Positions 11,430 through 23,339 of a stretch of 46,293 nucleotides of DNA are shown here, one piece after another. Positions within the stretch are counted from its first letter, which is position 1; the number at the start of each line of letters is the position of its first letter. A model generated the notes under the pieces. That model was not told the DNA's origin and searched no databases. It worked only from the letters and a program-made list of their open reading frames with translations. Source of the DNA: a virus. The stretch covers positions 1 through 46,293 of the IMG/VR virus record IMGVR_UViG_3300029319_000046; one strand, given 5' to 3'. A program made the translations under genes and the position numbers.

Positions 11430-12467
11430 ATGAAACTTTCACTTGCTAAGACTATCTTTGAAGCCTCATTCCTCAGCCAAATCGCCAACCGCGAAAGCCG
11501 TGATGCTGACCGGACCATACCCTATGCCTATGCCACCATGGGCATTGGCAAAACATCCATGGTTCATCAGATCAGGTCAGAGCATGACTGGGGCCTGTAC
11601 ATCCTTTCGCTGGCATCTATGGATGCCGCCGAGGTGAATGGCATCATTGCCCTGCTTGAACGTGAGGCCCACCGTGTCATGCCATTCTGGCTTCGCCGTC
11701 TGCATGAGATGGCGGCTGAACATGAGGTGGTCATCCTGTTTCTGGATGAGTTGCCACAGGCACCTGTCGCCAACATGAATGTCGCTCGTCAGATCATCAA
11801 TGAATTGCGTGTTGGTGAGTTCGACTTGCCCCATAACGTAGTTCTTTGTGCGGCTGGCAACCGCATGTCGGATCGGGCTGGCACAAACAACATGCCGTCG
11901 CATCTCAAGGACTGCCTGATGTTCTTGGAGATCGATCCTGACGTTGAGGACGCTATTGCCTACATGGTGGCCAACGGTGTGCATGAGGACGTTACCGCAT
12001 ATCTCCGCGCACGGCCTGAGTTCGCTGTCAAGTTTGACCGTGATGCCAACGCCAACCCATCCTTCCGGTCATGGGATCGCGTCAGCACCATCCTGTCATG
12101 GGGCCTGCCGCCTGTGGCAGAGGCCGAGGCTATCGCTGGCACGGTTGGCCGTCCTGCGGCGGCTGACTTCATGGGCTTCCGCAAGATGAAGGCCAATATG
12201 CCTGATCTGGACGGCATCATCAGCAACCCTGACAGTGCCGAGGTGCCGCAGGATGCAATGGTTCTCTATGCCATGGCATCCGGCCTTGCCTACCGCATGA
12301 CGCAGGGCAACGCTGGCAACATCGTCCGCTATCTCAAGCGGCTGGATCAGCAAGAGTTCGCTGGCTTCTGCATCAAGGACGCTGTCACTCGTGACCCTGA
12401 GATCAAGAAGTCCGAGGCTGTCCGGCAGTGGATCATCAACGGTGGGGCTGATCTGTTTGCAGCCTAA
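11430..12467 (+). CDS. MoxR-type AAA+ ATPase
   Basis: The protein has 345 residues. The Walker A motif is ATMGIGKTS at 35-43 (Ala replaces the first Gly), Walker B is VILFLDE at 101-107, and sensor 1 lies in VVLCAAGNR at 137-145. The spacing fits MoxR/CbbQ-type AAA+ ATPases, which work as hexamers with a VWA-domain partner to remodel target proteins. The next gene encodes such a partner, so the two probably form one machine. The C-terminal third (MTQGNAGNIVRYLKRLDQQEF) is helical and may be the lid and substrate part. It sits in the early operon, so a host-takeover or replication-stage target is more likely than virion assembly; the target is unknown. Confidence 0.8.
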   Translation: MKLSLAKTIFEASFLSQIANRESRDADRTIPYAYATMGIGKTSMVHQIRSEHDWGLYILSLASMDAAEVNGIIALLEREAHRVMPFWLRRLHEMAAEHEVVILFLDELPQAPVANMNVARQIINELRVGEFDLPHNVVLCAAGNRMSDRAGTNNMPSHLKDCLMFLEIDPDVEDAIAYMVANGVHEDVTAYLRARPEFAVKFDRDANANPSFRSWDRVSTILSWGLPPVAEAEAIAGTVGRPAAADFMGFRKMKANMPDLDGIISNPDSAEVPQDAMVLYAMASGLAYRMTQGNAGNIVRYLKRLDQQEFAGFCIKDAVTRDPEIKKSEAVRQWIINGGADLFAA

Positions 12468-12474
12468 TCTATGG

Positions 12475-12492
12475 GGGGCGGTTCGCCGCCCC
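12475..12492 (+). terminator. Stable hairpin after the AAA+ gene
   Basis: GGGGCGG-TTCG-CCGCCCC is a 7-bp GC stem with a UUCG loop eight bases after the stop. A palindrome copy ending in TTTTT follows, so the pair may serve as an attenuator between the ATPase and VWA genes. Confidence 0.6.
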
Positions 12493-12494
12493 TC

Positions 12495-12515
12495 AAAAGT
12501 TCCATCTAACTTTTT
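12495..12515. repeat. Dispersed palindrome, copy 4
   Basis: AAAGTTCCATCTAACTTT (core 12496-12513) lies between a GC hairpin and the GGGAG ribosome site of the VWA gene, with one mismatched pair beside the centre. Confidence 0.7.
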
Positions 12516-12526
12516 GGGAGTACGAT

Positions 12527-13672
12527 ATGACTGATGCAAATCTCAAGGTTGCTCAGGCCAAGACGCAACTGATGCTGCGGCATCCATTCTTCGGCTCATG
12601 TGCTGCCGGTCTCAACTTTGTCGAGACTGACAAGGTGCCGACTATGGCGACAGATGGCCGGTCCATTCTCTGGAACCGTGCCTTTGTTGACAGCTTGGAC
12701 AAGGACCATGTCATGGGCGTGATCGCGCATGAGGTGCTGCACGTTGTGTTCAAGCACATGTTGCGTATGGGCAAGCGTGTCCACAAAAAGTGGAACATCT
12801 GCACCGATATCGCCATCAACGATATCCTGATCGACAGCGGCTTCTCTATCCCTGAGCAAGGCCTGTTCAGCACCAGCAAGCCTGAGTGGAACAAGTTCAA
12901 GGGCTGGATGGCCGAGAAGATTTACGCCGAGATGCCTGACGATGATGTGCCAGAAGATGGTCCGGCATGGGGTGAGGTCATCCCCATGCAGGGTGAGGAC
13001 GGCAGCGAGATGTCCGAGGCTGAGACCCAACAGGTTGAGGCTGAGATGGACATCAAGGTCATCATGGCCGCTGATGCTGCCAAGTCTCGCGGCAACCTTC
13101 CGGCTGCCATCGATCAGCTTGTGCAGGTCATGCGCCGCTCACAGGTTGACTGGCGTGATGTTCTGCATCGTTTCATCGGTGGTGACCAGCCTGACGACTA
13201 CACATGGCGTCGGCCCCAGAAGAACGCATGGTTCAATCAGGGCATCTATCTGCCCAGCGTTGACCGCATGGGTGCCGGTGACATCATCATCCTTGGCGAT
13301 AGTTCACGTTCAGTGACTGATGAAGAATGGTCCCACTTCCTTGGTGAGATCAACGCCATCAGTGATGAACACAAGCCCAACTCTGTCACGGTCATCACCT
13401 TCGACACTAAGGTGCAGACTGTGAAGCGGTATGAGCAGGGCGAGGTCATCGAAAAGGTTGCACTGGCTGGCAGGGGCGGCACTCGCGTCACACCGGCTTT
13501 CAACTATGTCGATGAGCATCAACTGCCTTGCGACAACATGGTGGTCCTGACTGACTTGGAGATCACCGACTTCCCCGACGAGCCGGACTATCCGGTGCTT
13601 TGGGTATCAACCAACATTGGCTCCGACAAAGCCCCTTGGGGTGAGGTTGCCATTCTGAAAATGGGAGACTGA
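12527..13672 (+). CDS. VWA-domain protein with HExxH metallopeptidase-like domain (DUF2201-type)
   Basis: The protein has 381 residues. The N-terminal part has VIAHEVLHVVFKHMLR with HExxH at 68-72 and a following WNICTDIAINDIL, the pattern of the metallopeptidase-like DUF2201 N-domain. The C-terminal VWA domain has a full metal-ion adhesion site: DSSRS at 258-262, Thr 319 in GRGGT and the TD pair at 342-343. An acidic linker of about 60 residues joins them. Such proteins partner MoxR-type ATPases; the upstream gene is that ATPase, 60 bases away. Whether the HExxH is catalytic or only structural cannot be told from sequence. Start at ATG 12527 behind TTTTTGGGAGTACGAT. Confidence 0.8.
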   Translation: MTDANLKVAQAKTQLMLRHPFFGSCAAGLNFVETDKVPTMATDGRSILWNRAFVDSLDKDHVMGVIAHEVLHVVFKHMLRMGKRVHKKWNICTDIAINDILIDSGFSIPEQGLFSTSKPEWNKFKGWMAEKIYAEMPDDDVPEDGPAWGEVIPMQGEDGSEMSEAETQQVEAEMDIKVIMAADAAKSRGNLPAAIDQLVQVMRRSQVDWRDVLHRFIGGDQPDDYTWRRPQKNAWFNQGIYLPSVDRMGAGDIIILGDSSRSVTDEEWSHFLGEINAISDEHKPNSVTVITFDTKVQTVKRYEQGEVIEKVALAGRGGTRVTPAFNYVDEHQLPCDNMVVLTDLEITDFPDEPDYPVLWVSTNIGSDKAPWGEVAILKMGD

Positions 13673-21423: not shown

Positions 21424-21467
21424 ATAGGGGTTGACACTGGGAGACAGCCGTATTATCTCTATAAACA
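21419..21467 (+). promoter_or_regulatory. Promoter with flanking inverted repeats, upstream of the RAMP-like gene
   Basis: TTGACA (21431-21436), 17 bases and TATCTC (21454-21459) form a good sigma-70 promoter. TGTTTATAG (21419-21427) and CTATAAACA (21459-21467) are a perfect 9-base inverted repeat that brackets it. A repressor bound at both arms could close the promoter. The spacer contains GGGAGACAG. The next start codon is at 21495. Confidence 0.7.
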
Positions 21468-21494: not shown

Positions 21495-22256
21495 ATGGCT
21501 GTATCGAAAAAGACTACTGAGACTATGGAAATCCACGCATTAAAGCAGGGACATATCAAGTTGCGTATGATTGGCCAGACGCCAATGTATTTCAACTCTA
21601 TGGGTGCTAAGGCATGGCGTGATCTTCTGGTTGGTGGCGGCAAGAAGACTGCTGCTCAGAAGAAGGACATCAAGCACAACCCAGAAGCTGAGTTTCGTGA
21701 CAGTGTCTACAAGAAGGATACTGGGGATACTTACCTTTGTTTCCCTGCTGCTGGTGTAAAGGGTGCCATGGCCACTGCCGCGCTTGAGACTGGCGGCATC
21801 ACCAAGACCAGCGTTCAGCGTCTGATCTTCCTTCCCGAAAGTCACATTCAGATCTGGGGCAAGCCGTTCTTGAAGATGGACATTGTCCGCTCTGCCGATA
21901 TGAACAAGACGCCTGATGTGCGTACTCGTGCATATCTCCCCCAGTGGTGTGCAGAGGTGACTGTGAAGTATGTCGTTCCGACTTTGAGCGCACACTCCAT
22001 CGTCTCTCTTCTCTCCAACGCTGGCACTATCGTCGGCATCGGTGACTTCCGTCAGGAGAAGGGCCGTGGCTCTTACGGCACCTTCGCAGTCTCTGGCGCT
22101 GAGGACATGGGTGACTATCAGGAGATCTGGGACGAGATCACCAAGGAAGATCGTGAAGTCCAGAAGCTGGCCATGGAGCAGCCGATCTGTGCAGACGAGC
22201 AGACGGCAGAACTCATGCAGTATTTGCAGGAAGAGCGCCTTCGTCGGGCCGCTTAG
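21495..22256 (+). CDS. Possible RAMP/Cas7-like protein, unknown function
   Basis: The protein has 253 residues, with ATG 21495 behind AAAGGAGGCCGTT, one of the strongest ribosome sites here, suggesting high expression. Two features recall the RAMP superfamily of RNA-binding Cas7/Cas5/Cas6 folds: FPAAGVKGAMATAA at 83-96, like the G-x-x-x-K-G-x-x-R segment of Csm3/Cmr proteins, and the glycine-rich GIGDFRQEKGRGSYG at 181-195, like the RAMP G-loop. A beta-strand pattern (AEVTVKYVVPTL) precedes the loop. No cas genes or spacers are present. The C-terminal 55 residues are acidic and helical. The resemblance is by eye; an ssDNA-binding or unrelated fold remains possible. Confidence 0.45.
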   Translation: MAVSKKTTETMEIHALKQGHIKLRMIGQTPMYFNSMGAKAWRDLLVGGGKKTAAQKKDIKHNPEAEFRDSVYKKDTGDTYLCFPAAGVKGAMATAALETGGITKTSVQRLIFLPESHIQIWGKPFLKMDIVRSADMNKTPDVRTRAYLPQWCAEVTVKYVVPTLSAHSIVSLLSNAGTIVGIGDFRQEKGRGSYGTFAVSGAEDMGDYQEIWDEITKEDREVQKLAMEQPICADEQTAELMQYLQEERLRRAA

Positions 22257-22271: not shown

Positions 22272-22281
22272 AAAATAGAGG

Positions 22282-22298
22282 GGGGCGATCTTCGCCCC
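22282..22298 (+). terminator. Hairpin after the RAMP-like gene
   Basis: GGGGCGA-TCT-TCGCCCC is a stable 7-bp stem that can be extended imperfectly on both sides. It lacks a T tract downstream, so read-through into the GG array is likely. Confidence 0.55.
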
Positions 22299-22305
22299 TC
22301 TCAAT

Positions 22306-22805
22306 GGTCGCGGTTAGATATGTTTAGGACTGGTATGGCGAGGCGGTTCAGGTAAGGAGAGGAATGGTTTGTCCCTGTAGGGCATGTCGGGTCGAGGCGG
22401 TTGAGGTGGGGCCAGTTATTCTTTGGTTGGGCTTGTTTCGGTTGGGCGAGGCACGGTCAGGCACGGTCCGTCAAGGCGGTCTCGGTATGGTCAGGGCTGG
22501 TAGGGCTAGGCGTCTCTAGGCGTGGCGGTTCTGGTATGTTGCGTTTCGGTTGGGTCTCGTAAGGTTCGACTGGGCAAGTTTTGGCAAGGCGGTTCTGGCA
22601 AGGCAGGACACGGTAAGGCGCGGTGAGGCGTGTCATGGCGGTTCAGTTTGGGCGAGATCAGGCAGGGAGTGGCACGGTGGGGCGAGGCGGTCATGGCCTT
22701 GTGAGTTTAGGCTGGGCAAGTCAGTCGAGGCGTGTCGAGGCGGTCTAGTTGAGGCGTCGTGTGTAAGGGCAAGGCGTGTTCTGATGGGGCCAGTCAAGGC
22801 GGTCG
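22306..22805 (+). repeat. Non-coding GG-pentamer array (about 500 bp)
   Basis: This stretch has no credible gene. On the plus strand GG doublets recur at about 5-base steps for half a kilobase, with units such as AGGCG, TGGTA, CGGTT, AGGCA and GGTAAGGCGCGGTGAGGCG. The phase holds for long stretches and slips by one base in places. G is far more common than C or A on this strand. It lies between the RAMP-like gene and the 22833 gene, on the transcribed strand. Runs of GGNNN could form two-tier G-quadruplexes or R-loops. It does not look like tandem duplication, since units vary. Confidence 0.65.
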
Positions 22806-22832
22806 AAAATCTTTGTACTAAGGGAGAATGAA

Positions 22833-23339
22833 ATGAAGAAGTCAGTACGCTTTTCAAAAGACACTAAGCAGCGGATCATTGATGAATATCTTGCATCCAC
22901 TGGACTGAATACCTTTCGGGCTGATGAGTTTGTAGATTGGCTTGCTGATCAGCCTGACCATGAGGCCTATGCGGCTTTCTATGGGATGACTGATGAACAT
23001 GCTGCTCGTCAGTATCGTATCGACATGGCTCGTGATATGGCCAGTGGCCTTCGCATCGTTGCAAAGACTGAGGTCATTGAGAGCGGTGTCACATCAGTCA
23101 AGGTAACTGAATACCCCGCCTACATCTCTCCTGTGAAGGGGCGTAAGGATGGTGGCGGCTATGAGCCTTTTGATCCTAGTGATGAAGATGCTCAGGCTGA
23201 GTTGCGCCGTCAGGCTGGTGTCCAGCTTGCCGCGTGGCTTAATCGGTATCGTGGATCTGCCGAGAACATCGGCCTTGATATGACGCCCATTGAAGACATG
23301 GTGCGTGTGCTTCGGGACGAGAAAGAAGAAGCAGCGTAA
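22833..23339 (+). CDS. Unrecognised 168-aa acidic protein
   Basis: The protein starts behind TAAGGGAGAATGAA, part of a leader TTTGTACTAAGGGAG also seen at 16087 and 18475. The product has 168 residues, with helices at both ends (KDTKQRIIDEYLASTGL; IEDMVRVLRDEKEEAA), an acidic centre (YEPFDPSDEDAQAELRRQ) and no known motif. It is the last gene of the rightward unit, ending at a palindrome and terminator. Its promoter would lie in or before the GG array. Confidence 0.6.
   Translation: MKKSVRFSKDTKQRIIDEYLASTGLNTFRADEFVDWLADQPDHEAYAAFYGMTDEHAARQYRIDMARDMASGLRIVAKTEVIESGVTSVKVTEYPAYISPVKGRKDGGGYEPFDPSDEDAQAELRRQAGVQLAAWLNRYRGSAENIGLDMTPIEDMVRVLRDEKEEAA

Follow-up and report, generated by a model that had tools for sequence, protein, structure and literature searches.

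The closest described system to the locus analysed here is VIPR (Viral Interference Programmable Repeat), which was reported in a preprint in April 2026 (PMC13142463). It combines a RAMP protein with vrRNAs of 9-16 YNNGG repeats to bring about transcriptional repression and is used by phage against phage, where the NN letters pair with DNA and one target base is skipped (PMC13142463). Systems of this kind have been characterised in Escherichia phage SUSP1 and in a Pseudomonas fulva prophage. The published Vipr is a RAMP with an RRM core, a G-loop and a thumb and without a second RRM, each vrRNA ends in an invariable structured 3' tail, and the published accessory genes are vap1-6, of which vap1 enhances protection (PMC13142463). 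Staggered arrays with overlapping vrRNAs are also mentioned in the preprint (PMC13142463).

The window, by which we mean the whole stretch of 46,293 nucleotides that was analysed (IMG/VR virus record IMGVR_UViG_3300029319_000046), shares with VIPR its phage location, a single small RAMP gene, adjacent non-coding YNNGG (GGY/NN) repeats, a small neighbour gene and a one-base-skip, wobble-aligned match to the genes of other phages. We consider the locus, with a probability of about 0.95, to be a phage-borne VIPR vrRNA cassette where guide 3 is directed at a primase-helicase gene and guide 5 at an integrase gene so that rivals are repressed. An earlier note made from the letters of this DNA was aware of no phage element of this kind, a statement which the preprint has overtaken. 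The locus resembles class 1 CRISPR-Cas systems (Csm3/Cas7) in the RAMP fold and in the oligomer that should form on a guide RNA in which unpaired positions recur periodically, but it has no CRISPR repeats, its unit is 5 nt and not 6, and its guide letters are interleaved with GKY. Membership of class 1 was rejected as no array of fixed long repeats (CRISPR direct-repeat type) was found in this region and the genes further upstream of vipr encode a Sak-type annealing protein, an exonuclease and an HNH protein; none of the neighbours examined is a cas gene. TIGR-Tas likewise has guide RNAs in a tandem array that is carried by phages and associated with one protein, but Tas was found from a Cas9 guide-RNA interaction domain and not from a RAMP (PMC12045711), by which it is set apart.

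A total of 91 GG dinucleotides were counted on the plus strand of positions 22306-22805. GG-GG pairs at lags of 5, 10, 15 and 20 were observed 32, 34, 39 and 31 times respectively where about 16 +/- 3.6 are expected from 1000 dinucleotide shuffles (z 4.3-6.5), and lags 7, 12, 17 and 22 are depleted to 1-2 pairs. The lag-5 maximum of the whole window (plus strand) falls inside the same positions. These peaks confirm the spacing of GG at about five bases that the earlier note had described, and its view that selection acts on the GG register and not on copies of the unit is upheld. The unit is better described as G-[G/T]-Y-N-N (also written GKY-NN), with entropies of 0.37, 1.19, 1.20, 1.95 and 1.97 bits at its five positions over 261 distinct guides from the window and its relatives, and GT replaces GG in about a quarter of the units. 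These entropies correspond to the alternating GGY and variable NN of an intergenic vrRNA adjacent to its vipr gene. The array starts at about 22305, which is 3' of a GC-rich hairpin (a putative leader at 22278-22300 on the plus strand, between the vipr stop and the array, with no T-run on that strand), and a similar hairpin occupies the equivalent place in the aligned relatives. No match to Rfam families or to tRNA/tmRNA was obtained at the array, and no DNA similarity of the array was found among phages.

The array is not uniform: at every GGCGGT joint (22342, 22396, 22475, 22524, 22588, 22637, 22686, 22739 and 22798) the 5-nt phase is shifted by one base. The segments between joints are 54, 79, 49, 64, 49, 49, 53 and 59 nt long and seven of the eight have a length of 5n+4. 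In the window and the relatives of the upstream gene taken together, 453 of 553 joint spacings and 261 of 318 distinct segments obey this rule. As the 5n+4 segments are cut by GGCGGT, each is likely to be a discrete guide, mostly of 7-15 units, and the array divides into about nine guides joined by GGCG-GT. All lie on the plus strand. Guide 1 (22305-22341) has 7 units, with NN letters GC TA AT TA CT AT GA, and the first guide of the relatives L127, L128 and L133 is nearly the same. Guide 2 (22342-22395) has 10 units (CA AA GA AT TT CC AG AT GG GA), guide 3 (22396-22474) has 15 (GA GG CA AT TT TG TT TC TG GA AC CA AC CC AA), guide 4 (22475-22523) has 9 (TC AT CA CT AG TA GT TA GT) and guide 5 (22524-22587) has 12 (CT AT GC TC TG CT AA TC TG AA TT AA). 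Guides 6 (22588-22636; CT AA AG AC AA GC GA GT AT) and 7 (22637-22685; CA TG GA CA AG GT AC GG GA) have 9 units each, guide 8 (22686-22738) is an irregular segment of 53 nt with one 4-nt unit inside, and guide 9 (22739-22797) has 11 units (TA GA GT GT AG AA GT CT GG CA AA). The last joint, GGCGGTC at 22798-22804, ends the array. Guides 2-7 and 9 therefore fall, with 9-15 units, in the range of 9-16 repeats per vrRNA, and guides in the relatives mostly have 7-12 units. The sole recurrent element between guides is the short joint. In SUSP1 the guides are separate RNAs with structured tails whereas here they are arranged head-to-tail, and no separate structured 3' tail was identified in the array.

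Directly upstream of the array, the vipr gene (21495-22256, plus strand) encodes a 253-aa Vipr/RAMP homologue. This protein carries a glycine-rich loop (GIGDFRQEKGRGSYG) and differs from the published Vipr in its C-terminus, which is extended by about 50 aa. The profile of its 66-member family matches PDB entry 36pp_D, 'SUSP1 Vipr protein', with E=1.3e-41, and phrog_4652 was matched by all 66 aligned members. The G-loop is conserved in the family alignment, where G195 is invariant and G181 and R186 exceed 90%. The AlphaFold model of the protein (pLDDT 91, pTM 0.86) was found by Foldseek to resemble Csm and type VII CRISPR RAMPs (E 2e-6, prob 1.00). The protein is distant from the SUSP-clade Vipr, with a pairwise identity of 30% over 54 aa, and a profile was needed for the match; a single-protein scan of genome contigs with the homologue gave two MAG loci. 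A putative vipr promoter (TTGACA - 17 nt - TATTAT, 21431-21460, plus strand) was recognised by eye, as in the earlier note, and was not listed by a consensus promoter scanner.

Gene and array are closely linked. Among 80 relatives of the 253-aa protein taken from IMG/VR, the array directly follows vipr in 78, and the other two contigs end just past the gene. A reverse search of viral sequences by the bare pattern (GGNNN)8GG gave 120 stretches, where a Vipr homologue was observed at 73 loci compared with none of 65 background loci; in 71 of the 72 placed loci it is on the strand of the array, at most 536 nt away. As positive controls, a similar tract was seen beside the vipr homologues in phages SUSP2, DSL-LC04 and UmaThurman. 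In Gordonia phage UmaThurman (NC_031249, L276 3117-3388) the GGYNN array lies directly 3' of gp39, a vipr homologue. It overlaps with gp40, annotated as 'hypothetical protein', so that gp40 is probably a misannotated non-coding RNA. In phage DSL-LC04 (OR003939, L274 3977-4594) the vipr homologue WJZ48083.1 is annotated as a 'helix-turn-helix transcriptional regulator'. No Vipr was detectable in the DNA examined around 38 of about 110 array-bearing stretches, several of which look like single orphan guides; examples of arrays without Vipr are L039 4964-5358, L048 9687-10080, L082 3237-3615 and L079 4941-5329. In these cases Vipr may be encoded elsewhere or may have diverged.

Downstream of the array, a phrog_15946-like gene of 168 aa (22833-23339, plus strand) is a candidate vipr-accessory (vap) gene. 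A relative of it occurs at 69 of the 80 vipr-relative loci, the remaining 11 being short loci, and at 22 of the 120 array-pattern loci, and phrog_15946 was matched in 26 of 30 members. The model of the protein (pLDDT 88) gave no PDB fold match at E<=0.001, and weak profile matches to haemagglutinin were judged to be chance. Elsewhere in the window (11430-13672), an AAA ATPase was noticed beside a DUF2201 metallopeptidase/VWA protein; the two form a MoxR-VWA-like pair carried by a phage.

We read the guides by the published rule, where the NN letters pair with the target and one target base is skipped (NN-x-NN-x). The decoded letters correlate with codon positions 1-2 (r=0.82) compared with -0.57 to 0.28 for the other frames, and for the targets of guides 3 and 5 the skipped base is the codon wobble position, which agrees at the sequence level with the one-nucleotide skip of VIPR. 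In T7-like contigs, 242 guides without guide 3 gave 13 matches at E<0.01 with the one-base skip, none with skips of 0, 2 and 3, one with a skip of 4 and 0-4 with shuffled unit order. In five Roseobacter autographivirus isolate genomes the one-base skip gave 18 matches, some of which are one collagen-like repeat matched many times, against 0, 0, 1 and 0 for the other skips. The contigs and isolate genomes used for these comparisons with other skips had in part been found with guide 3 or 5 in the first place. The target scans of IMG/VR used the one-base rule with guides 6, 7 and 8 left out. A first target search in 1.6 Mb of relatives gave no clear excess at any skip, presumably because these contigs are relatives and not targets.

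Predicted targets in competing mobile elements were resolved for two of the nine guides. The IMG/VR search with guide 3 (8 of 15 units, one-base skip) returned 36 contigs, and about a dozen of the matches extend to 24-28 of the 30 letters. The site lies on the sense strand over the zinc-finger codons (DGHxFCFSCETH) of a T7-like DNA primase-helicase, with 28/30 letters matched in L220, L223, L230 and others and 27/30 in the primase of Roseobacter phages CRP-118 and CRP-403 (E=4e-8). Roseobacter autographiviruses are the nearest named phages. Guide 5 (9 units, one-base skip) returned 7 contigs, 5 of which encode the same tyrosine-integrase motif, and its site covers the codons of HDLRHEAISR on the antisense strand. 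Over all 12 units the match reaches 23/24 in L212 and L216 and 21-22/24 in L210, L213 and L215, and two of the matched contigs were confirmed by profile to encode an integrase. These genes differ from the published targets, which are SUSP1 satellites and Pseudomonas lysogeny regulators, and no earlier report of them as targets was found in the literature. Furthermore, guides of different relatives converge on the endonuclease, polymerase, MazG and exonuclease genes of one T7-like contig.

For guide 2 no exact 9-unit target was found in viral contigs. The best match of guide 4 (16/18) is in a non-wobble phase, is not significant and was judged to be chance, and one 19/22 match of guide 9 is probably chance. 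Guides 6 and 7 had no match in the CRP genomes. Collagen-like tail-fibre repeats in CRP-125 (L282, 31362-33000) are matched at several places by guides of L144 and L149 (GT GC CC repeated), which could be multi-site targeting or a low-complexity coincidence.

The content of the array turns over quickly. The closest relative, L127, has a Vipr that is 100% identical and yet has only three of the eight full guides in common, with a few point changes; the remaining guides, including guide 3, are absent from it. Guides thus appear to be exchanged as modules. Since GKY stands between the target letters throughout, no guide can be a direct copy of target DNA, unlike CRISPR spacers. It is an unlikely suggestion that guides are written by a dedicated activity, for which the 168-aa neighbour is one candidate; the alternative is that they arise by module exchange and selection only. 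No reverse transcriptase was found in the 59.8-kb genome record of the phage.

Other explanations of the array were considered. The earlier note had offered two-tier G-quadruplexes on the G-rich strand or an R-loop where replication starts. Strong G skew and the many GG doublets in 500 nt would suit these structures, but neither has any need of 5n+4 joints, a RAMP neighbour, exchanged modules or gapped NN matches to the genes of other phages, and the GT found in place of GG in about a quarter of the units would spoil quadruplexes. The idea is unsupported, as it leaves the phase-slip joints, the adjacent RAMP gene and the turnover of modules unexplained, and we consider it highly improbable. 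A slightly larger but still slim chance is given to a VIPR-type RNA which serves the regulation of the phage's own genes and not an attack on other phages. A self-regulatory RNA might be as nearly identical among several relatives as the first guide is, but within the phage's own genome record of 59.8 kb (which includes 13.5 kb beyond the window and where no integrase was found) no guide matches better than by chance, and the guides that do match do so in replication and integrase genes of other phages.

That the array is a functionless low-complexity or degenerate coding repeat has a virtually negligible probability. Mechanical open reading frames are present (93 aa, 22550-22831), but all six frames of the array contain stops (2-9 each), in 73 of 74 relatives none of the frames runs for 400 nt without a stop, and no conserved coding frame or peptide was observed across the window and the 74 relatives, which bears out the non-coding nature claimed in the earlier note. 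Furthermore, a period of 5 is not a multiple of 3, and the array is kept at the same place in the 78 relatives mentioned above.

We therefore return to the VIPR cassette, for which the following mechanism is proposed by analogy with the described systems. The array would be transcribed co-directionally with the upstream vipr and processed at the joints, giving one guide per segment bounded by GGCG-GT. Vipr subunits would assemble along the RNA to form an RNP, probably with one subunit on each 5-nt GKY-NN unit; GKY would be held by the protein and NN exposed, and successive NN letters would pair with double-stranded DNA as NN-x-NN-x. The earlier suggestion of an RNA lattice for a protein that reads a 5-base register was thus right in essence. 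Guide 3 would address the T7-like primase-helicase gene and guide 5 tyrosine-integrase genes. If the bound complexes repress these genes, the phage would suppress co-infecting or resident rivals, and we infer that it meets the matched phages in one cell. The cassette looks like a weapon in phage-against-phage conflict.

As a member of the VIPR family the locus is ordinary, belonging to a kind of system described in April 2026. What seems to be new is the set of predicted targets together with the packed, joint-delimited array. For the VIPR code, the analysis adds independent computational support from a clade that is far removed from the two already characterised. Guides change quickly and yet cannot be plain copies of DNA, which leads to the question of how they arise. 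In addition, with the named isolates CRP-118 and CRP-403 as predicted targets, the phage-against-phage role becomes testable outside E. coli and Pseudomonas.
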